Source of the DNA: Vulcanimicrobiota bacterium
GTDB lineage: Bacteria > Vulcanimicrobiota > Vulcanimicrobiia > Vulcanimicrobiales > Vulcanimicrobiaceae
Assembly: GCA_013043945.1 (NCBI GenBank)
Contig: JABEUW010000068.1
Location: 1 to 37,415, forward strand
Direction: 5' to 3'
Length of the DNA stretch: 37,415 nt
Part shown: positions 23,928-35,459 of the stretch, piece by piece
How the letters are laid out: the number at the start of each line of letters is the position of its first letter
Numbering within the stretch: the stretch's first letter is position 1
Translations under genes and position numbers: made by a program
The notes under the pieces: generated by a model
The model's input: only the letters and a program-made list of their open reading frames with translations
What the model was told of the DNA's origin: nothing
Databases searched by the model: none

Positions 23928-24004
<77 letters not shown>

Positions 24005-24014
24005 ACCTTTCGAA

Positions 24015-24042
24015 AAATTCCCTCGTGAAAGCGAGGGAATTT
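24015..24042. terminator. stem-loop just downstream of tRNA-fMet, terminator-like
   Basis: aaattccctcg-tgaaag-cgagggaattt, perfect 11-bp stem with A-rich 5' and TTT 3' edges. Confidence 0.6.
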
Positions 24043-24137
24043 CGTTGTGCCAATCACTTCGTGTGCCATTCATGTGCCGTGCGGGTTAAAAACATGCGGA
24101 ATTACGCAACGAGCTAGCCGCGAATTCAGCATCGTCT

Positions 24138-25277
24138 CTAGCCATTCGAAAGCTTCTCGATGCTGTCGCCAAGCGAATCGACTGCGCTGCGCTGCGCGTT
24201 GGCGACGAGATGGGCGTACGTGCTCAGAGTGACGTTCGGAGTCGAGTGGCCGAGAACGCCAGCCGTCGTCCGTACATCGACGCCGTTGACAAGCAGCGTC
24301 GTCGCCGCGGTGTGCCGGAGGTCGTGAAGCCGAGTGGTGCTGATCTTCGCCTTCTCGGCCATCCGAGCGAAGGCGTTGGTGGCACTCTTGGGCGTCACGC
24401 GCTGCCCAAGCTCGTCGGCGAACACCGCACCGTCGTCGCCGTACAGGCCCCCGGCCTTGAGTCGATCGGCGGCCTGCGCGGCTCGCTGACGCCGAAGCGC
24501 GTCGATGGCATGGCGCGAGAGCGGTAGCGTTCTGGACTTCCCAGACTTCGTGCCTTTCAAGACGACGCGACCCTTGGTCTGAGAAAGTGACCGGCGGATC
24601 GTCACGGTCCCTGCGTCGAGATCAACGTCGCTCCAAGAGAGCCCGCACAGTTCCCCGCGGCGCGCTCCGAGAGTTAGCGCCAACGTCGCGAACGAACTCC
24701 ATCGGCCTTCCCGCGCGACTGCCAGAAGTCGCCGCACCTCATCGCTCGTCAGGGCCTTCGCCTCGGACGGGCTCGCGGTGGGCGGCGTGACTGCCTCGCA
24801 TACGTTGCGCCCAGCGAGTTGCATGCGTACCGCCCAGCGCATCGTCCCATTGAGCAGCGCGAACGCGTGACGCACGGTCTTCGGAGCGAGTGCCCGAGAG
24901 TCGCGGCCACCGCTTCGACTGAGGTTCGCAATCCATTCGGAGACATGGGCGGGCCGCAGTTTCGCGACGATCTTCTCGCCGAGGTGCGGCACGATGTAGA
25001 GCGCGATGATCCGACGATACTCTTCGATCGTCTTTTCTCCGCGGCCAAGCGCTTCACGATCGGAGAGATACCGGTCAGCGAGTTCCCGGATCGTCACCGT
25101 CATCGGCGCTAGGTCGATGCCTCGGTCGCGAGCCGTCAGCGCCTCGCGTTCTGCGCGTGCTGCATCCTTGCGCGTCTTGAAGGCTCCGAGCGAACGCCGA
25201 CCGCGAGAACCGTTCGTCTCGCGGTCTACGTCGATAACGACGCGCCAGTTCCCCGATGGCAGTTTGTAAATGCTCAT
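24138..25277 (-). CDS. int: phage-type tyrosine recombinase / integrase
   Basis: N-terminal arm-binding-like region, SAM-like core (ADRYLSDREALGRGEKTIEEYRR), LTLGARRGELCGLSWSDVD, TRLHDLRHTAATTLLVNGVDVRTTAGVLGHSTPNVTLSTYAHL (R-HxxR-H-Y). Confidence 0.95.
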   Translation of the reverse strand: MSIYKLPSGNWRVVIDVDRETNGSRGRRSLGAFKTRKDAARAEREALTARDRGIDLAPMTVTIRELADRYLSDREALGRGEKTIEEYRRIIALYIVPHLGEKIVAKLRPAHVSEWIANLSRSGGRDSRALAPKTVRHAFALLNGTMRWAVRMQLAGRNVCEAVTPPTASPSEAKALTSDEVRRLLAVAREGRWSSFATLALTLGARRGELCGLSWSDVDLDAGTVTIRRSLSQTKGRVVLKGTKSGKSRTLPLSRHAIDALRRQRAAQAADRLKAGGLYGDDGAVFADELGQRVTPKSATNAFARMAEKAKISTTRLHDLRHTAATTLLVNGVDVRTTAGVLGHSTPNVTLSTYAHLVANAQRSAVDSLGDSIEKLSNG

Positions 25278-26140
25278 GCTTTCTTTCTCAAATGCTGATT
25301 ATGACTTATTTTTTCTCTCTCGCGGTGACCGACGGTTACGAGGGCCTGAAGGCGCTCCGTGCGAAGCTCCTGGAGACGGAGCTGAATGGTGGCAATCCGC
25401 GAGCTCCAGGCGGACGGCGCATTGAGGAACCCCCATTCGCGCATAGCGCTCAGCACGGCCGGTTCCACAGGGTTGGCGTTGCGGTAAGTCTCGGCGCCAC
25501 GAGCCATTTCCGCGATCTGTGTCAGAACCGTTTCCGCGCGCGCGCGGGCGTTTTTCAGGAGGCGCTCGTTGCGCCGCTCGAACGCCGACCGCAGTCGCTC
25601 GGGCGGGAAGCCTTTGAGCGCATCGGCGAGAACGCTCCGGGCATCGGCGCGCAATTCCTCGCCTTTATCGTCGAGGTCGAACCGGAGATTGTTCTCCCGG
25701 AGTACGGCGAGGGGTACGTACACGGCGAGTAGGGCCGCCGTTTCGGGCTGGGGAAAAACCACCGTCCCGCCTGCCCGCAGAACCGCGCGGCGGTGCGCAA
25801 CCTCGCATTCAGTCGGGATCAGAAAGACGCGCGCCGTCGTCTCCACCCAGTCGCCGAGATACCCAGCCGCATAGAGCGCGAGCGGACCGCTCGCCCACGC
25901 CACGCCGCAAGCGCGTAACGCCTCGCCAGCTTCGAACGCGAGGAACGGCGACACCGTTCGGCTTCCGTCGATCCAATTCCGCACCTGCCACGTTGCGTCG
26001 CCGCTTCGCTCGGTGTTCGCGCTGATCGCCTTCGCGAGCGCCGATGCTGGAATCGGACGCTTATCCCCGACAAGCGGATTCAAGAAGAAAGCCCAGTTCC
26101 TACGTACAGTGCTGTCTTTTGCCGTTAGGTACCGTGCCAT
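25274..26140 (-). CDS. putative XRE-like DNA-binding regulator, coupled to int
   Basis: ATGA-type overlap with int; N-terminal SGDATWQVRNWIDGSRTVSPFLAFEAGEALRACGV resembles a Cro/CI HTH; start taken at MARYLTAKDS. Confidence 0.45.
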   Translation of the reverse strand: MARYLTAKDSTVRRNWAFFLNPLVGDKRPIPASALAKAISANTERSGDATWQVRNWIDGSRTVSPFLAFEAGEALRACGVAWASGPLALYAAGYLGDWVETTARVFLIPTECEVAHRRAVLRAGGTVVFPQPETAALLAVYVPLAVLRENNLRFDLDDKGEELRADARSVLADALKGFPPERLRSAFERRNERLLKNARARAETVLTQIAEMARGAETYRNANPVEPAVLSAMREWGFLNAPSAWSSRIATIQLRLQELRTERLQALVTVGHREREKISHNQHLRKKA

Positions 26141-26279
26141 ATACCTTCTATACCATACAATATCATATATAGCAAGACCCGGTCGACTTTCCGTCGACAT
26201 CGTCAATTTAATGGCGTTATACTTCGAAACACGGTCATGCAAGGCCGTTGCACTTTACGTCTATATGAAAGGATATAAT

Positions 26280-26483
26280 ATGGCATCGTTACAGGAACCC
26301 GGCACGACGCAGCGCCGGCTTACGTGCTCGATCAGTGAGGCGGGGGCGCTCCTCGGGATCGGCCGGGCTTCAGCCTATGAGGCCGCGCGCACCGGACAAA
26401 TTCCAACCGTCACACTTGGTCGAAGAAAAGTCGTTCCGCGTGCCGCGCTGGAGCGGCTTTTGAGCGGCGAAACGCGTCCGTGA
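26280..26483 (+). CDS. HTH excisionase/AlpA-like DNA-binding protein
   Basis: CSISEAGALLGIGRASAYEAARTGQIPTVTLGRRKVVPRAALERLL matches the MerR-like HTH excisionase pattern; strong RBS aaagga before ATG. Confidence 0.85.
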   Translation: MASLQEPGTTQRRLTCSISEAGALLGIGRASAYEAARTGQIPTVTLGRRKVVPRAALERLLSGETRP

Positions 26484-26788
26484 ATACCGATAGCACGTAC
26501 GACAACCGCCGCGCAATCGCCAACCATTTCGTTCGTTCGTTGCGCGACCCCAACGCGCTCGCGCAACGTCGCGAGGAAGCGCAACGATTCCTTGACGAGT
26601 CCGAGTTCGAGGCGCTCAAGGAGGACGCGCGATTCCGCTGCGCGTGCGCCGCTGTCGTGCGAATGATAGCACGGACGTCGAAGTTGGAACCGACCGAGCT
26701 CGCAGGGTATTTGCGCATGGGCCTCTTTCCACGAACGCGCGCTCGAATCTATCGCCTGGCGAAGCGGATCGCGCAGGTGGCAGCATGA
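26480..26788 (+). CDS. hypothetical element protein
   Basis: GTG start with GTGA overlap to the upstream gene and ATGA overlap to the downstream DUF3987 gene. Confidence 0.65.
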   Translation: MNTDSTYDNRRAIANHFVRSLRDPNALAQRREEAQRFLDESEFEALKEDARFRCACAAVVRMIARTSKLEPTELAGYLRMGLFPRTRARIYRLAKRIAQVAA

Positions 26789-28425
26789 CGACATTCGCAT
26801 TTAATGATCGCGACCGGCAGTTGCTCGACGGAGCTACCGCAGACTTTCGCGCGCGAGGCGGCCATCGTTTGCCGCGCAGCGAAGCGCACTACGAATCTTC
26901 AATCGCGCCTTGGCCTGAATTGATACGCGATGTCGATCCGGAATTGTTGCCTCTGCCGATGCCGCCAGAACTGATCCCGGAACCGCTGTGTCGCCGCGTC
27001 GTAGATATTTGCGAGCGCACCTGCGTGCCGGTTGAAATGGTCGCGGCGCCGATGATTGTTGCGGTCGCTGCCATCGTCGGCCGCACGGTCGGTATCCGGC
27101 CCAAGCGGTGCGATGATTGGCTTGTCGTCCCGAACTTGTGGGGCGCAGTGGTGGCGCGCCCGGGATTCTTGAAAACGCCTGTAATCGCCGAGGCTTTGAA
27201 ACCGTTGGCGCGCCTCGCACAACGCGCGCGCGAGCAGTTCGAACATGATCGCGAGGCTGGCGATTGTCGATCCGCTATCGTGAAACTAGAAGTCGAAGTT
27301 CTTGAGTCGCAATTAAAGACTGCGCTGAAAAAATCTGGCGACGATTCGACGATTGCGGTACTGCGCGAACAACTCGCGGCGAAGCGGATTGAGGTCGAGG
27401 CGCAACCGACAGAACGACGCTTTATCACCCACGACGCGACGGTCGAAAAGTTGGGCGAGCTTTTGAAAGAAAACCCCCGCGGTTTGCTCCAATCACGTGA
27501 TGAGTTCGTCGGCTGGCTGCGCCTAATGGATCGCCCCGGACACGAGGGGGATCGCGCATTTTATCTTGAGGCGTGGAATGGAACGGGTTCGTATACGTTC
27601 GATCGCATCGGTCGCGGCACGGTACACATTCCAGCGCTCACGCTCAGCGCATTCGGTGGCATGACGCCAGGGGCGCTGCGCGCCTACATCGCCGAGGCTT
27701 TGACGCAAGGGCGCGGTGCGGACGGCCTCTTGCAACGGCTACAGGTCGTCGTCTGGCCCGGCGCGATGCCGAATTGGAAGAAAGTTGACCGTGCGCCCGA
27801 TGCTGCGGCGCGTGATCGCGTCTTTTCGATCTTCGAACGCCTTGACGCGCTCTCCCCGGCGTTCGTCGGCGCCGCGTGCGACGACGACGCTGAAATTCCT
27901 TACCTTCGGTTCTCGCCAGAAGGGCAAGTGCTGTTTGATGCGTGGCACGCGGACCTTGAGCTACGCCTACGCGGCGACGACCTCGGCGACCGGCCCGCGT
28001 TCGAATCGCATTTGGCGAAGTATCGCTCGCTCATGCCGAGCCTGGCTCTGTTGTTCCACCTCGTCGAGGTCGTTGACGGCGGCAAGCCGGAAGCCGGCGT
28101 TTCGTTGGGCGCGGCTCGCCTGGCGGCGACTTGGTGTGACTATCTCGAAAAACACGCGGAGCGCGTCTACGCTTCGGAGACTCCGCGTTCGGCGGCCAGC
28201 TCGCTGGCCCGGCACATCGAGCGAGGGGACGTGCACGACGGCGACGACGTGCGCACCCTCTATCGGCACGGCTGGTCGCGTCTTGATACGGCCGAGCGCG
28301 TTACGGAGGCCGCTCATATCCTGGGAACGCTCGGCTGGCTCCGGCTCGTCGAAGCCCCCAGCGCGGGCGGTCGCCCCGCCTCCCCGAGGATCGAACTGCG
28401 CCCCGACTTTGGGGTCGAGCAATGA
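26785..28425 (+). CDS. DUF3987 (YfjI-like) replication-type protein
   Basis: PPELIPEPLCRRVVDICERTCVPVEMVAAPMIVAVAAIVGRTVGIRPKR, VPNLWGAVVARPGFLKTPVIAEALKPL (P-loop-like segment of this family), LLQSRDEFVGWLRLMDRPGHEGDRAFYLEAWNG. Confidence 0.85.
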   Translation: MTTFAFNDRDRQLLDGATADFRARGGHRLPRSEAHYESSIAPWPELIRDVDPELLPLPMPPELIPEPLCRRVVDICERTCVPVEMVAAPMIVAVAAIVGRTVGIRPKRCDDWLVVPNLWGAVVARPGFLKTPVIAEALKPLARLAQRAREQFEHDREAGDCRSAIVKLEVEVLESQLKTALKKSGDDSTIAVLREQLAAKRIEVEAQPTERRFITHDATVEKLGELLKENPRGLLQSRDEFVGWLRLMDRPGHEGDRAFYLEAWNGTGSYTFDRIGRGTVHIPALTLSAFGGMTPGALRAYIAEALTQGRGADGLLQRLQVVVWPGAMPNWKKVDRAPDAAARDRVFSIFERLDALSPAFVGAACDDDAEIPYLRFSPEGQVLFDAWHADLELRLRGDDLGDRPAFESHLAKYRSLMPSLALLFHLVEVVDGGKPEAGVSLGAARLAATWCDYLEKHAERVYASETPRSAASSLARHIERGDVHDGDDVRTLYRHGWSRLDTAERVTEAAHILGTLGWLRLVEAPSAGGRPASPRIELRPDFGVEQ

Positions 28426-28775
28426 GCGCCCCCTTCACTTCGCGATGGATGATTTTTCCAGCGCCCCCTAAGGTAGCGGCTGACGAAACTGCCAGAAGTC
28501 CCCAGACCTCCCCTTCTGTCAGTTCTGGCAGCCCCGACCATAGGGGTGAAAAGAAAAATTCGCGGGCGGAGTCCGGCGCGTCGGCCGAGCAACTGGCCGT
28601 CGCCCCGATGACCGCCGACCCTGTAATCGTTGCGGCGCGACACTTGCGCGAATGCCGGTGGGCAGCCGAATTGCCCGTCTGCGCCTTCCTCATCGGGTAC
28701 GCGGGCGAGGACTGCAGGCGCTGCGGAGCGTCGTGGCTGGAGCACTACCCAAGCGGGTTCGTGCGGCCAGCGTGA
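28422..28775 (+). CDS. hypothetical protein with C-terminal Cys cluster
   Basis: ATGA overlap with upstream gene; C-terminal CRWAAELPVCAFLIGYAGEDCRRCGASW could bind zinc. Confidence 0.5.
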   Translation: MSAPFTSRWMIFPAPPKVAADETARSPQTSPSVSSGSPDHRGEKKNSRAESGASAEQLAVAPMTADPVIVAARHLRECRWAAELPVCAFLIGYAGEDCRRCGASWLEHYPSGFVRPA

Positions 28776-28902
28776 AGGGCGCCGCCTGTCTCTGCAATAG
28801 GCCCGCTGCGGGGCTCCGCGCTCGCGCAGGCTTCACGATCCGCCAAATGCATCCGGCGGGCGCGCCGTCCGGCCAAGCGCCCGATCCGCCGGGCGGCAAA
28901 TA

Positions 28903-29193
28903 GTGGGCGAAATGTCGTCTAGGCGCAAAGGGAACGGCCCAGGTCTGGGTGGCCCAGCCAAGGGCGCGGGATTGTGGGGGCCAGCGAACGGCATGGGCTG
29001 GGGTGGCGAGAGCCGCGCCAGCGGCAAGGGCAGAGGGCGCCCCATGACCGGCGACGAGCGAGCCGATCTGCGTCGAGAGATGCTCGCGCTCTACGTTACG
29101 ATCGCCCGCGATCCCGGGCAGCCCACCTTGATCCGCATGCAGGCCGCACGCCATCTCATCGAGCGGCTCGACAACCCATTCGACCTGTTCTAG
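28903..29193 (+). CDS. Gly-rich small-terminase-like protein
   Basis: GTG start; N-terminal GPGLGGPAKGAGLWGPANGMGWGGE resembles Gly/Pro-rich N-termini seen beside phage terminases; C-terminal helical region ALYVTIARDPGQPTLIRMQAARHLIERLDNP. Confidence 0.45.
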   Translation: MGEMSSRRKGNGPGLGGPAKGAGLWGPANGMGWGGESRASGKGRGRPMTGDERADLRREMLALYVTIARDPGQPTLIRMQAARHLIERLDNPFDLF

Positions 29194-29385
29194 GGTCCGC
29201 GACCCGGTATTTCTTTGCCGCCCCAACGCGCGCCCGTGCGCGCGCGGGGGTTTCGAAACCGCGCTCGCCAAGCCCCCAGAGCGCGAGCGTTAAAGCCTGC
29301 GGGTGACGCACTTGCGAAGGGAGCCGGGCGCCTCTTTGGCGCCCCCCCCGGATGGCGCGCGGAGCGCCGGGAAGGGTCGCCGAAG

Positions 29386-29571
29386 GTGGGTACGTTCCTG
29401 TTTCTCGTACTAATTGGGATTGCGCTCTATTTCGTACCGTCGCTCATCGCGGTTACGAGGGCCAAGCGCAACACGCTTGCGATCTTCGCCCTCAATCTTT
29501 TTCTCGGTTGGACCCTCGTCGGCTGGGTCGTTTCCTTGGTATGGGCGTTGGCGGTTGACCACACTTTCTAA
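29386..29571 (+). CDS. superinfection immunity protein (Imm_superinfect, T4 Imm-like)
   Basis: VGTFLFLVLIGIALYFVPSLIAVTRAKRNTLAIFALNLFLGWTLVGWVVSLVWALAV: two TM segments with the family LYF.PS.IA..R.K.N...I..LN..LGWT..GWV..LVWA pattern; GTG start preferred over the upstream 29215 start. Confidence 0.85.
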   Translation: MGTFLFLVLIGIALYFVPSLIAVTRAKRNTLAIFALNLFLGWTLVGWVVSLVWALAVDHTF

Positions 29572-29597
29572 TCTAAGCTTGCATGAAGGACAACAAA

Positions 29598-30140
29598 ATG
29601 AACCGCTTCATCGGCGCCTCAGCAGCTATAGCGCTTCTATTGGTCGTTTGCGTTACTTCGATTGCATGGTTTCTTGGAAGATCATCCTCGGCCGATGTCA
29701 TCGCTGCAAAAGAAGTTCGAGCCTGCATGACGATGCACCACCTTCGTATGGCGAAGCAGACTGTCAGCCGGCCGCAGTCAAGCGAACTCGTCTTTGCGTC
29801 GTGTACATGGCCGCCGCGTGCGTGGGCGGGGCAGGACGGATATTCGGAGATTATTGTCACAACCTTCGACGGGCCGGGCCGAAGCGAGGTTTCAGACGCT
29901 GACGAGGCGGATTACATTCGTGCGCCGTGCCAGCGGGTAGAGTTGACGTACGATTTCGGGTCGCAGGGGGTATATAAGTTTCTGCACCCCTTCGTGGCTA
30001 CGGTCGGAACGGTGACGTCGGAAGACCATCCCGGGCAGCAATGGCATGGAGCGAAGCTTACTCAATACCCGGGCCGAAATGAAATCGTCTATCTTCGCAA
30101 CGACGACGAAGGACTCGTCAGCGCGACCTGCCGAGCGTAA
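29598..30140 (+). CDS. hypothetical membrane-anchored/exported protein
   Basis: N-terminal TM MNRFIGASAAIALLLVVCVTSIAWFLG, then extracytoplasmic region with several Cys. Confidence 0.65.
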   Translation: MNRFIGASAAIALLLVVCVTSIAWFLGRSSSADVIAAKEVRACMTMHHLRMAKQTVSRPQSSELVFASCTWPPRAWAGQDGYSEIIVTTFDGPGRSEVSDADEADYIRAPCQRVELTYDFGSQGVYKFLHPFVATVGTVTSEDHPGQQWHGAKLTQYPGRNEIVYLRNDDEGLVSATCRA

Positions 30141-30142
30141 AA

Positions 30143-30161
30143 AGCGGTCGTCCCGACCGCT
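30143..30161. repeat. short stem-loop after the exported-protein gene
   Basis: agcggtcg-tcc-cgaccgct immediately after the stop codon. Confidence 0.55.
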
Positions 30162-30230
30162 GCGTTGGGATGCAGCCCCCACCGTGCGCGACGTGCTGGA
30201 TGCTGCTCGGCGACGGCGGCCCGCAGCGCG

Positions 30231-30563
30231 ATGAATGACTTCCCGGAGTTTTCGGGACGGTTAACGCGCGCGCGGGGGTTTCGAATACGCTTGGCCAACG
30301 ATTACAAAATGAAAGGCGCGATCGTGCGAGGGGTCTCGGTTCTATTCGTTGAGCGCGGGCTCGAACCGCTCGCGGAAGCGTGCGAAGGCGTCGCTGCGCC
30401 GGCAAGAGCCTCTCGTGCTGGAACGACCTGCGTCATGATCCGCGCTGGACGAGAAGTAATCGACAGCGCTATGATCGACGACGCGCTCGCGAGGTTCACG
30501 AACCCGCGCGACACCGGAGATTCACCGCCCAACACAGGCGCGATTTTACGGCTGGCCGCGTAA
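30231..30563 (+). CDS. hypothetical protein
   Basis: ORF MNDFPEFSGRLTRARGFRIRLANDYKMK...; stop overlaps the next start (TAATG). Confidence 0.5.
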   Translation: MNDFPEFSGRLTRARGFRIRLANDYKMKGAIVRGVSVLFVERGLEPLAEACEGVAAPARASRAGTTCVMIRAGREVIDSAMIDDALARFTNPRDTGDSPPNTGAILRLAA

Positions 30564-31444
30564 TGGAGAATTCGCCGTCGATTATTGGCGCGAGAGAGGC
30601 GATCAATGCTATAGGGGCGACATTGACGGCCTTCCTGAAATCAGGTTCACAATATCCGAACCACCTTGAGGAGACTTATGCTGACATCTCGAAATCGGTT
30701 CGTGAGATTTTACCAAGCATCGAAGCCGCCACGGCGAGCTACGAGCAGGCATGCAAAGACTTTCTCGATAGCGTAATTCAGGTCAGGGGAATGCCGTTCA
30801 GAGCAATATCTGGAAGCGACGAACAGCAGGCGCAAAATGTCAGTTCCAGCGGAAGCCACATCGCCGAGATATTTGACACGCTCCTCCCATCCATCACCGA
30901 GCGCTATAAGTGGTGCATTGAGAACTATCGTTCGCAATCGGCAAGTTTTCTAGAGGACCGGATTGGCCAATTGCAGGCCATGTTGAAAGCATTTCTTGAC
31001 AAAGTTCCGAATGGCGGGACAAACGAGAAGACGATTAAGAGCAAAATTGCGGAGATAAAGAGTGATCTTCGCTCTTTGGCAAAGTGGGATCGTCTCTTCT
31101 ACACCTACAAAGCGACGAGCTTCCACGATGAAATAGAATATATCTTCATGCTCGCGAAGGACGATCCGGTCGCTGCAATCTGGGAGTATTGCTACCTGGA
31201 TGAACAGGGCGAGTACCAGCAAACTTACAACCACAAGAAGCGCCACGGCCGCGTGTATGCCGTTCGTGGAAGTTGGGCTATCGAGCAGGGCTTTATAAAA
31301 GTTGGCCCAGCTGGCTATCTGGACGAGATCAGCAGACCGGGCCAAGAGGTTGGATGCATGTGTTCCCTTCAATGGGTCATGTCGCCGCGCGATCTGCCGC
31401 GCGAGATGCTCGCCGAGAGCGGGCGGGGCCGGGTGAATACGTGA
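30563..31444 (+). CDS. element protein with MuF/head-morphogenesis-like C-terminus
   Basis: Long helical N-terminal region; C-terminal NHKKRHGRVYAVRGSWAIEQGFIKVGPAGYLDEISRPGQEVGCMCSLQWV resembles the Mu gpF C-terminal H...(H)G.v(y/f)xv...P....(n/g)C.C pattern. Confidence 0.5.
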   Translation: MENSPSIIGAREAINAIGATLTAFLKSGSQYPNHLEETYADISKSVREILPSIEAATASYEQACKDFLDSVIQVRGMPFRAISGSDEQQAQNVSSSGSHIAEIFDTLLPSITERYKWCIENYRSQSASFLEDRIGQLQAMLKAFLDKVPNGGTNEKTIKSKIAEIKSDLRSLAKWDRLFYTYKATSFHDEIEYIFMLAKDDPVAAIWEYCYLDEQGEYQQTYNHKKRHGRVYAVRGSWAIEQGFIKVGPAGYLDEISRPGQEVGCMCSLQWVMSPRDLPREMLAESGRGRVNT

Positions 31445-31581
31445 GTCGATACGTCGATCGCAAAAATTGGAGCGCACCGCCGCGCACCGCCGAAGGGAGC
31501 GCTTTTAGGCTAAAAACGAAGCAGTGTCCCAATTGCCTTTCCGGCATTCCCGCCGGAATCAAGCCGCCTGAGGTCCAATAA
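31441..31581 (+). CDS. small protein with CPNC motif
   Basis: GTG start overlapping upstream stop; VSRYVDRKNWSAPPRTAEGSAFRLKTKQCPNCLSGIPAGIKPPEVQ (46 aa). Confidence 0.35.
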   Translation: MSRYVDRKNWSAPPRTAEGSAFRLKTKQCPNCLSGIPAGIKPPEVQ

Positions 31582-31627
31582 AAACACCTCCGCGAAAGCG
31601 GCCCAGCTTCACCGTTCCTTCCCGCGG

Positions 31628-32953
31628 CTAGTTTGGTGCAATAAATGCGTCTAGCAACTTAAAGACCTTTAATGTTCGCAGGGCCTTAACGGAAATATTA
31701 ACGTTTCCGTTTACCGTTGGGCACGAAATCTTGACCGTTGCAATGGCATTGAGCGACGTCGTATTTGACGTATCCGAGGCCATTGAACAACGAGTTTGCC
31801 GGCTCTCTTCGTCGTTTACAAGGGTGCGCAAATACGAAAGTGCGGAGAAGTTTGCGCCCGACGCGACAAAATCGTCGGAGCCCGTTTCGACATATCGAAC
31901 CAGCGCAGCAAAGGCCGTATATTCTATCGCGGTCGAGGTAAGAATGTAGCGATCGCCATTCCATTTCACCGTTGCTGTCGATGCAATGTCTGGGCAAGCG
32001 AGACATTGCCAGAACGGTGCTTCCTGATCGCCTCCTGCTGGAAAAGCATACCCGGTTCCTGTGAGGCCGTGAAAATGCTTGACCAAGACATCCTTTGGAA
32101 TAGCGCCACCATCATACTTAGGCTTTGTCCCAGCGACAAAGCGAAGCACATGTAGCACATAACGATCCCCACTCCCGCCCCAAAAACTCGTTATCAGGCC
32201 ATCAAAAGAAAGAGCAAATCCATGGGGCATTGGCAACAACGCCACGTCCTGTGCAGCTACGGCATCGTTAACGAAATCCGCAGGCATGGCGACGAGGCTC
32301 CGCGGAACTTGACCGTCTTTGTTCGATCGATACTCAACGACCATCGCTGCATTTATTAGGGCTGAACCGAAGCAATCAGTCGTCGAGTTGGGAACGGTAT
32401 TGCCGGAAGACGGATCGAACGCCGGAGTCCACGACGAGACGCTCAAGACGCGCACAACGTAATCCAAATGAGCGGCTGGGGTTGGCTGAGAATATTCAAT
32501 ACAAAGGGTACCCTTCGCCATACTCGCAAGCTTCTTTGTAAGCACGACGTCGCTCAACAACCATTCATGAGGACGCGCCACGGCTTTCTGGGCTGCGGAA
32601 ACTAACTGATCGAATAGCGCCGCAGGAGGGCCATCTCCTTCGTTATAAATGTTCCGGGCGGCGGCAACGTATTGTGAGGCGGCCCGTGCATAGGCGGCCC
32701 ATGCGGCATTATCGCTAGCAATATCGCGCGCAATTTTTTTATCGACCGCTCGTCGTGAACCGGGTTGTAGGCGCAGTGTTGATGCGAGGGTCCTTGCTTC
32801 GTCATAATTTCCGCTGCGCGCATCTGTTTGAGCTTGCGATAGAGTCCTAGCTTCGCGGGCCATTTCGAGCGAGCGCAAGTGTCGCCACAACAAGCCTCCG
32901 CCGAGCGCCGCGATTGCCACTGCGCCGAGAATAATATACGAGACTCGGTTCAT
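31628..32953 (-). CDS. membrane-anchored hypothetical protein (element cargo)
   Basis: Start MNRVSYIILGAVAIAALGGGLLW (TM), then ~415 aa extracytoplasmic region; opposite orientation to neighbouring cargo; visibly lower GC. Confidence 0.65.
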   Translation of the reverse strand: MNRVSYIILGAVAIAALGGGLLWRHLRSLEMAREARTLSQAQTDARSGNYDEARTLASTLRLQPGSRRAVDKKIARDIASDNAAWAAYARAASQYVAAARNIYNEGDGPPAALFDQLVSAAQKAVARPHEWLLSDVVLTKKLASMAKGTLCIEYSQPTPAAHLDYVVRVLSVSSWTPAFDPSSGNTVPNSTTDCFGSALINAAMVVEYRSNKDGQVPRSLVAMPADFVNDAVAAQDVALLPMPHGFALSFDGLITSFWGGSGDRYVLHVLRFVAGTKPKYDGGAIPKDVLVKHFHGLTGTGYAFPAGGDQEAPFWQCLACPDIASTATVKWNGDRYILTSTAIEYTAFAALVRYVETGSDDFVASGANFSALSYLRTLVNDEESRQTRCSMASDTSNTTSLNAIATVKISCPTVNGNVNISVKALRTLKVFKLLDAFIAPN

Positions 32954-33317
32954 GTTGAAACCTTGGATCGCATTTCCTGCCCTTCTCCGGGAGCAAATTC
33001 CGGCCCTCCTGACTTGCCCGTAGAGTATCAATATCGGACGTTGAGTAGGAGCTCGACGAAAAATTCGGGGTCGAGCTTCCGTATTCGAGGCCCCACGTTT
33101 TGAGTGCCAGGAGTGGCACCACAGCTTTCTGCCTCTGCAAGCCCGTTGGAATGGCGACGGTGAAAAGACGGCGAGAGACCGTGTGCCATTCGTGTGCCAT
33201 ACGCGACCAGATTAGACCGAACGAGACGATACGAACCGAGACACCGCGCGGCGGAAGACCTTACCAAACGGGGATTTGCGACTACGCGGCGACACTCGAC
33301 AGGACCACCCTGACGGA

Positions 33318-33340
33318 TTCAAATCCTGTCCCCGCAACCA
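33318..33340 (+). repeat. attachment site core, distal copy
   Basis: ttcaaatcctgtccccgcaacca identical to 23982..24004. Confidence 0.93.
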
Positions 33341-33434: not shown

Positions 33435-35459
33435 CTAATTCAACGCTGCCTGAGTTCGAATCGCACCGTTCCCGGCGACAAATGCATCCATAATCGTAAG
33501 CAGCCCTTCCGCCGTTCTGTCGAGATCGCCGGACAACGCAAGCAGATCTGAAAATTTTGCGTCGAGCACGGTCGACGATGCGACCACCGTGTCGGCGGTC
33601 ACCGCATCGTCGCGCGACTTATCGGCAAACTCGGCAATCGCCGTCGCCAGCTCTCGCGCCTGCGCGGCCATTTCTTCTGTGGCCGCACCGTTTTGTTCGA
33701 CCACCGCAGAGATTGCTTGCATGGCATTCTCCGATCGTTTCGCCGATTCAAACATCTCAGCCGAGGAGCGCTCGATCTGCTCGCTACCCGATCTCGAAAG
33801 ACGAACGTTTTCGGATATCGATTGGAGCGCTTGCGATATGGACTCCGATTGAGATGCAGCCTCGACGACACGACTCTGGGCTCCCCCGACCGCAGCCCCT
33901 GCCGTACTCACACGATCGCGCACTTCGGTTATGAGTGCCGTAATGCGACGGTTTTCATCGGCGCTTCGTTCGGCGAGTTTCCGAATCTCCGATGCTACCA
34001 CGGCAAAACCCCGGCCCTGATCCCCGGCCCGAGCCGCCTCAATCGCTGCGTTGAGTGCGAGAAGATTGGTTTGTTCCGCAATCGATTCAACACTCTCAAG
34101 AATCGTGCCGATTTGCGACGACAGCTTCGATAGCGCAGCCATCTCTGCCGATGCTTCCCGTGTGGAAGCGTCGGTCTCAACAAGCATGCGCAGGGTCGCG
34201 CCCACGACGGCCACGCCGTTGTCGGCTGCCCGAGCGCTTTCACGAGCAGAATCGAGCAACAAGGTCGCTTGTTCCACCACCGTGCGGGCCTGCTTACCTA
34301 CCGATTCGATCTCTCCACTCGCCGCGCGCACTTGGAGCGCTTGGTCGGCGGCTCCCCGCGCAATACTTTCGACGCCAATTGCGAATTCGCCGATAATCGA
34401 TCGTGAAGCGCTTGCCTCCGTCGCACGACTTCGAAGCGCCTTGGCGAGCATCCCAACGGCACCAACCGAGGCAGTAGCTTGCTCGCGCACGAGAGCGACG
34501 TTTTGTTGCAATAGATTCGCTGATGGGGCGAGCGTGTTGACCGCCGCCTTAACGCCCTCTAAAATTGCGCGGATGCTCCCCATCATCGAGTCCAGCGATG
34601 TCCCAAGTCGGTCACGCTCGCTCTGCGGAGCGATGCTCGCTCCGATGTCGCCGCCGGCCATGGCTTCTGAAGCAGCCACGATCGAGCGTTGGTAATCGAT
34701 CATTTCCTCGAATGCATTGGCAACCGGTCGCAGCTCTCCGTCGATCGCACGGAGGTCGCCGAGTTCGAGTTCGCCGCGTGAAAGCGTTGCAGCGGCAACG
34801 CGAAGCACCGCAGCGCCCTTTCGTAGTCGTCGTATGCCGAGCGAAAAAACGAAAAACGTGATCGTGAAAATCAGGAGCATCGCACCGGCGACACCGACGA
34901 CGACGAGCGTAATTAATCGATTGATTACTGCGAGCGGATAGCTGACAACGTACGCACCGATCACGCGTCCGATGGCGTCGAAGACCGGCGCGGCGACGAC
35001 GAAGCTGGGAATCTTCGAGATCTCCGCGTCTCCTCGAAATGGTTTTCCGGCTATGATTGCCGAGGCTACCTTCGGGGGGATGTTCGCGGTGACGATAAAC
35101 GAACCGTCTTCTTTAATCGACGATGCGTCGAGTATCCATTCGCCGCCGTTTTGGCGTGCAAAAATCGACACATCGGCGCCGGAGAGCGAATGCGATTGCT
35201 GTATTAGGGCTTCGTTTCCCCCGTTGCTCCAACCGGGAAAGCCCGGAAAGCTGAGTTGCCCGCTCGAAAGCGTCGCATTCCCGGCGTTGGTAGCGAGCGC
35301 CAGTAAGGCCTTGACCGCCGCCTTCCCCTGACCGGAGAGAAAGCCATACTCCACTCGTTTCGCCGAATAGACCAGCCCCGCAACGGCAAATACGATCCCT
35401 AGAGCAAAAGCGATCGCTGTCGGCAACATGATACGAAACGTCATAGAATCCCGATTCAC
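33435..35459 (-). CDS. methyl-accepting chemotaxis protein
   Basis: N-terminal TM, periplasmic sensor, second TM, HAMP-like region, signalling hairpin [41 protein letters not shown]. Confidence 0.95.

Follow-up and report, generated by a model that had tools for sequence, protein, structure and literature searches.

An integrated island at tRNA-fMet

The window analysed here is a 37,415-nucleotide stretch of DNA (JABEUW010000068.1) that forms one whole contig of an Eremiobacterota metagenome-assembled genome (MAG) of 70% completeness. It carries a real mobile element: an intact, site-specifically integrated island inserted at the 3' end of an initiator tRNA-Met (tRNA-fMet) gene. The features of the locus are listed below, with open reading frame (ORF) starts refined for the gene upstream of the integrase (26140), the glycine-rich gene (28912), the MuF-like gene (30563) and the last ORF (32953).

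23928..24004, +, tRNA-Met gene (CAT), initiator type, integration target (ARAGORN; C1-A72 mismatch and GGG/CCC anticodon stem read from the sequence)
23977..24004, +, attL core, 28-bp repeat forming the tRNA 3' end (repeat search; junction against empty sites)
24061..24082, +, tandem 11-bp repeats GTGTGCCATTC/ATGTGCCGTGC, probable integrase arm-type sites (conserved in locus L124)
24138..25277, -, int, tyrosine recombinase with arm-binding N-terminal domain (PF00589, 9.8e-30; PF14659; PF14657; phrog_1, 1e-77)
25274..26140, -, int-overlapping upstream gene, 288 aa, no known family, in an iolg-like position (ATGA overlap with int)
26265..26483, +, xis/alpA-like helix-turn-helix (HTH) gene, divergent (HTH_17, 9.3e-9; phrog_66 excisionase, 3.5e-4; TIGR01764, 4.9e-5)
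26480..26788, +, orf102, between xis and the DUF3987 gene in an up1-like position (4-nt overlaps on both sides)
26785..28425, +, DUF3987 replication-type protein, 546 aa (PF13148, 7.2e-78; phrog_2373, 6e-15)
28422..28775, +, orf117, closing the 4-nt-overlap operon (Cys motif CRRCGxxWLEH at the C-terminus)
28912..29193, +, conserved glycine-rich element gene, 93 aa, earlier called small-terminase-like (homologue in G042:C98)
29386..29571, +, superinfection immunity-family small membrane protein, Imm (PF14373 Imm_superinfect, 8.4e-18)
29583..30140, +, orf185, predicted secreted or anchored protein (N-terminal hydrophobic stretch read from the sequence)
30563..31444, +, MuF-position minor head/head-morphogenesis homologue, 293 aa, ATG at 30563 (phrog_324, 4.2e-5; tblastn to 5e-16)
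31628..32953, -, orf441, membrane-anchored orphan, low-GC cargo (GC 0.53; third-position GC 0.52)
33181..33202, +, tandem repeats GTGTGCCATTC/GTGTGCCATAC, probable arm-type sites at the other end (repeat analysis)
33313..33340, +, attR core, second repeat copy, 26/28 identical (repeat search)

Repeats and empty sites place the element at 24005-33340 (9,336 bp), correcting the limits of 24138-33031 given in the first-pass annotation. It is flanked by 28-bp direct repeats (none expected in shuffled sequence), the left one ending exactly at the 3' end of tRNA-Met. In four congeneric MAGs that lack the element (G042, G039, G036 and G037), the sequence left of the insert, ending at 24004, directly abuts the right flank, and the insert is therefore 24005-33340. 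The right-flank match starts at about 33436-33637 in these genomes, where tRNA-Met is intact, and the junction was aligned base by base in three of them (G042, G036 and G037). The empty site shows integration of the element directly. Both flanks resemble ordinary host chromosome, as judged by eye from their ORFs.

Just inside each end lie tandem 11-bp repeats built on GTGTGCC, starting at 24061/24072 and 33181/33192 and found in the same place in a sister island; within the window, GTGTGCCAT is confined to the two element ends. These are probably integrase arm sites, the match to an arm-binding N-terminal domain in Int being weak.

The T-stem of tRNA-fMet reads ACAGG/CCTGT in the window and GCGAG/CTCGC in five matched congeners. 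When window positions 23957-24004 were compared with loci L124 and L165-L170 and control loci L174-L179, integrases of this clade (one case a fragment) were found beside the tRNA in 6/8 ACAGG genomes versus 0/9 GCGAG genomes (Fisher p 0.0023, uncorrected for relatedness). This association could reflect either an integrase preference or the scar of earlier integrations. A T-arm swap by the element on insertion was considered and rejected: attR has CCTGT and not the CTCGC of the congeners, and an allele preference of the integrase fits at least equally well. Because attR too carries CCTGT, the ACAGG allele probably predates this integration.

Control and replication genes and their relatives

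Most gene calls of the first-pass annotation were borne out by profile searches: the minus-strand integrase, the divergent AlpA/excisionase-like HTH gene, the replication-type DUF3987 gene, Imm and the MuF-like gene. The small-terminase-like call failed. The "coupled regulator" stands as a coupled minus-strand gene, overlapping int by 4 nt (ATGA at 25274-25277) and of no known family. Homologues of this 288-aa protein are encoded next to int/xis in several Eremiobacterota islands.

On the plus strand, xis, orf102, the DUF3987 gene and orf117 form a continuous run with three 4-nt overlaps (GTGA, ATGA and ATGA). Profile searches gave no family match for orf102, and no separate primase domain was found in the DUF3987 protein. 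The CRRCGxxWLEH C-terminus of orf117 recurs in a gene of G091 (L166, 3626-4051 downstream of the tRNA), the two standing behind unrelated replication genes; the common motif suggests a conserved element function.

Homologous elements at tRNA-fMet, which the first-pass annotation had proposed looking for, do exist. Sister islands in other Eremiobacterota occupy tRNA-fMet, -Met, -SeC and -Phe, and those at the same site have no recognisable structural genes. The island of G063, in the same tRNA, has an integrase 91%, an upstream gene 41% and a xis 65% identical to those of the window, with the ATGA overlap. At tRNA-fMet in G091 and G098, int again overlaps by ATGA and is accompanied by a small divergent HTH-like gene; the replication genes of these two differ, being ATPase/helicase-like (by eye RepA-like and DnaB-like). 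The int overlap is thus common to the window and three sister islands at this tRNA. G062 carries a clade integrase (49%) at tRNA-fMet and G092 a fragment of 39 aa. The same plan is followed in G084 (tRNA-Met), in G073 (tRNA-SeC; DUF3631 replication gene, 1e-39, and SIR2-domain cargo) and in G065 (tRNA-Phe; DUF3987, 52%). Since the sister islands keep int, the overlapping gene and xis and swap the replication gene, the control module is stable and the replication gene exchanged.

Likely defence cargo was seen in three sister-island loci: a SIR2_2 domain (L126, 10836-11969), a KAP-like NTPase recognised by eye (L166, 4707-6872 downstream of the tRNA) and MrcB_N plus HNH (L125, 9364-10326). Contig G042:C98 (L087) holds a truncated element, cut at both contig ends, with a regulator, xis, an AEP-like primase gene, HicAB and the homologue of the glycine-rich gene; it represents a second satellite-like element in the same genus.

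Scanning genome contigs, we found 66 related DUF3987 loci in many phyla; the closest relative within the order is on JACRTY010000002.1 (Candidatus Eremiobacterota). Downstream regions of at least 1.5 kb were available for 39 of the 66, giving 53 ORFs for scanning. Small terminase (TerS) was the commonest recognisable family among them, found at 4/39 loci (three phrog_83, one phrog_309), and none of the 53 ORFs matched capsid or portal families. In 50,697 phage records there were just three weak relatives of this DUF3987 subclass. This DUF3987 lineage is mainly island-borne, and part of those islands are packaging-linked. At one further locus of the 39, from Acidobacteriota (L013, 5900-7302), a TerL-like gene is split over two ORFs, and no head genes were recognised on its 12-kb contig.

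Distal genes and the search for a helper phage

GC content falls from about 0.63 in the element core to 0.52-0.57 in most distal genes, as expected of cargo. Imm scores 64.4 bits against a curated PF14373 cut-off of 27.9. Profile searches gave no family match for orf185 or for orf441, and a search of 148 other genomes from the phylum returned no homologue of the latter.

Tests of the two packaging-related calls of the first-pass annotation upheld one and not the other. The glycine-rich protein (28912-29193) has no Pfam, PHROG or NCBIfam match; tblastn of it and its homologue against phages gave nothing at E up to 10; profile-profile comparison with P27 TerS (from L007/L028) gave no match; a PDB profile search was negative and Foldseek returned no significant fold match. 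A single-sequence model, consisting of a disordered glycine-rich half and two helices, offers too little to decide. As all profile, fold and sequence tests against TerS families were negative, the small-terminase annotation is dropped. By its homologue, this is a conserved element gene.

In contrast to the terminase call, the MuF-like protein is, by homology, related to the phage MuF/phrog_324 head-morphogenesis family. Its phage homologues H1 (Shewanella), H6 (Pantoea) and H14 (Yersinia) match phrog_324 at <=6e-23, and in all three, which were checked, the gene lies directly 3' of the portal gene. Identity is 30% over 189 residues to the Shewanella protein and 40% over 88 residues to the Pantoea protein, with a conserved C-terminal domain (HKxR..VY.VRGSWA..G...GYLDEI..PG.E..C.C). 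Two signals in the N-terminal and middle part of the protein, NCBIfam MobP3 (E 0.098) and PADLOC LmuB (E 0.005), were judged to be chance, and an AlphaFold model made without an alignment (pLDDT 40) was discarded. A literature search on MuF in satellites returned nothing relevant, and we know of no described satellite from which a role for a phage head-assembly (MuF-position) gene is known.

As the first-pass annotation had noted, capsid, portal, large terminase and tail genes are not recognised: none of these families gave a convincing E-value on any scanned element ORF. Nor does the region 25400-33340 show nucleotide similarity to any phage record. No relaxase was found in the element by Pfam, and the NCBIfam MobP3 signal is at E 0.098. 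A co-resident helper prophage, as suggested earlier, was not found with the families tested, either in the 70%-complete MAG or in nine congeneric MAGs.

Potential helper-type phages do exist in the family, as shown by an Eremiobacterota phage fragment (G081:C33, L076) with the C-terminal part of a TerL-like gene (by eye), a portal gene (phrog_146, 4.4e-46) and a MuF gene (phrog_324, 5e-12) related to the MuF-like gene of the window. In another family of the phylum, G103:C40 (L134, 5684-7174) carries a portal gene (phrog_146, 1e-121) whose matching stretch is interrupted by two stops, possibly a decaying prophage.

Interpretation and comparison with known systems

We consider it reasonably probable that the island is organised like a small phage satellite, resembling the phage-inducible chromosomal minimalist islands (PICMIs), which are the smallest phage parasites known: its HTH_17, DUF3987 and int genes are the marker families of the published PICMI model. 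The architecture, the TerS genes of related elements and the MuF homologue point to dependence on a phage. Beyond integration, the mechanism is most likely that of PICMI115, by analogy. The integrase would insert and remove the island at the 3' end of tRNA-fMet by means of the 28-bp core and the arm-type repeats. A helper phage or another signal would derepress the xis operon, and the divergent HTH protein, acting as excisionase or switch, would join Int and the overlapping upstream protein in excising a circle. This circle would then be amplified by the xis-orf102-DUF3987-orf117 operon, DUF3987 supporting replication. Lacking structural genes, the island would be packaged by helper proteins and spread in tailed helper phage particles. 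Imm and the other downstream genes may serve as cargo, and the MuF-like protein might either be packaged with the helper virion or interfere with it.

Several observations weigh against a phage satellite. With the TerS-like call gone, the element itself has no confirmed packaging gene. At 34/39 related DUF3987 loci no terminase gene is recognised, so this DUF3987 gene also serves islands lacking a visible packaging link. Capsid family PF05065 was found in 0/10 congeneric genomes, its own included, in a search of incomplete MAGs that covered no other capsid family; portal phrog_146 is likewise absent from these incomplete MAGs of the genus; and a possible helper-terminase signal (phrog_2, about 22-26 bits, on a 318-319-aa ORF) occurs in all ten congeneric genomes and is read as a host ATPase. 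The result is weak evidence against a helper, as the MAGs are incomplete and few capsid and terminase families were covered, and known satellites may also depend on virulent phages as helpers, in which case no prophage is left behind (PMC10803314). Finally, a MuF-like homologue 69% identical to that of the window lies in a relaxase/ParA-bearing region of G005, which indicates that this gene also moves outside satellite-like islands. All this would suit a generic genomic island, integrative and not a dedicated phage satellite, that brings its own integration and replication functions and travels either passively, by natural transformation or generalised transduction, or through mobilisation by a conjugative element. 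Set against the missing relaxase match, the fit of the architecture, ATGA-overlapping gene included, to an experimentally proven satellite type, and the phage-related nature of the phage-head homologue and Imm, we find such an island rather unlikely. It is, in our view, very improbable that the element is a decayed prophage, stripped of its structural module and left with the MuF-like gene as a remnant. A MuF-position head gene with no portal or capsid neighbours would be explained in this way, and Imm is known from phages too; however, the element is compact, its ORFs are open and no genes are broken, its att sites match, it has an operon with 4-nt overlaps, an empty site exists, and possible head, tail or lysis remnants come down to the one MuF-like gene. 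The sister islands free of recognisable structural genes, the near absence of this DUF3987 subclass from phage genomes and the lack of nucleotide similarity to phage records all argue against decay, as does the MuF gene itself, a low-GC insert (GC 0.52) that has a relative in mobile surroundings of another kind.

A further proposal, compatible with a PICMI-like satellite, concerns the MuF-like gene: derived from a phage head, it may move between elements on its own as a defence or interference gene unrelated to packaging. We hold this to be possible, if short of probable. The G005 homologue has a NurA-domain gene on one side and an AbiE pair on the other, neither portal nor capsid genes being recognised in its vicinity, and the GC content of the window gene differs from that of the element core. 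Only two such copies have been seen, though, and a satellite could also use a MuF-like protein for interference. The G005 region as a whole (G005:C23, L075, 1498-18981) encodes a DnaJ-domain protein, Rad50-like and Mre11-like proteins, a large ATPase-like ORF, NurA, AbiE, a relaxase, a ParA-like protein and the MuF-like protein, and is a possible defence island.

For the PICMI-like reading, tRNA genes throughout an uncultured phylum hold islands of the int/overlapping-gene/alpA/DUF3987 plan, which suggests that this minimal satellite layout is either far more ancient or the outcome of convergence. The family offers a testable case of a satellite-type element with a phage head-assembly (MuF-position) gene, and provides first candidates for mobile elements, a phage type and anti-phage cargo of Eremiobacterota. 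Going further, one could imagine phylum-specific minimal satellites in which the int/overlapping-gene/xis module is fixed and the replication genes can be exchanged, the present member having captured a MuF-type phage head protein with which it steers or poisons helper virions; we put this forward as speculation that is more likely wrong than right by a wide measure.

Compared with MuF/SPP1 gp7-type proteins (phrog_324), the window protein shares the C-terminal domain and is of similar length (293 aa versus 272-278 aa), whereas its gene has no neighbouring portal, terminase or capsid genes. Tycheposons and VEIMEs bear integrases and have been proposed to be phage satellites, tycheposons targeting tRNAs. 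The window element is likewise integrase-bearing and, set beside them by description only, differs in host. Both are marine satellite-type elements and are named in PMC11389934.

Gram-negative phage-inducible chromosomal islands (PICIs), to which the first-pass annotation had likened the element, have an integrase, a replication module and a master regulator in conserved order and no structural or lytic genes; they use a unique att site never used by prophages and a PICI-specific Pri-Rep with an iteron origin (PMC6092414). The window element has an integrase, an AlpA-type regulator, a replication module, a dedicated att site and no structural or lytic genes, so it agrees with a classical PICI as far as its genes allow testing, the PICI family's own genes not having been shown in it. 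It differs in its replication gene, a DUF3987-only protein not shown to be a Pri-Rep, in being smaller than the typical 12-15 kb, and in that TerS is unproven. A satellite-like organisation free of a virion module is supported.

The PICMI model requires int, alpA and a DUF3987/DUF5906 prim gene to be co-localised; complete PICMIs are reported only in Vibrio, with the fis site as a hallmark (PMC10803314). The gene overlapping int (iolg) falls into 13 families, and its overlap is most often ATGA, as in 14/35 PICMI subfamilies; in PICMI115, int, iolg and alpA are necessary for helper-induced excision and prim is needed for normal copy number; and excision is phage-induced, with packaging as concatemers in helper virions (PMC10803314). 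Differences lie in the host (Eremiobacterota versus Vibrionaceae), the site (tRNA-fMet versus fis), the size (9.3 kb versus 6.1 kb for PICMI115) and the MuF-like gene. Because PICMIs are confined to Vibrionaceae and the fis site, the element, known here from its genes, is PICMI-like and not a PICMI. What it shares is int (PF00589), an alpA-type gene (PF12728) and a DUF3987 prim (PF13148) found together; the ATGA overlap of int with an upstream gene that is iolg-like by position and overlap only; one gene placed between alpA and prim; accessory genes on the far side of prim; flanking direct repeats; the absence of capsid genes; and small size. On gene content and order, the closest published architecture is thus the PICMI type (PMC10803314), closer than the classical Gram-negative PICI.

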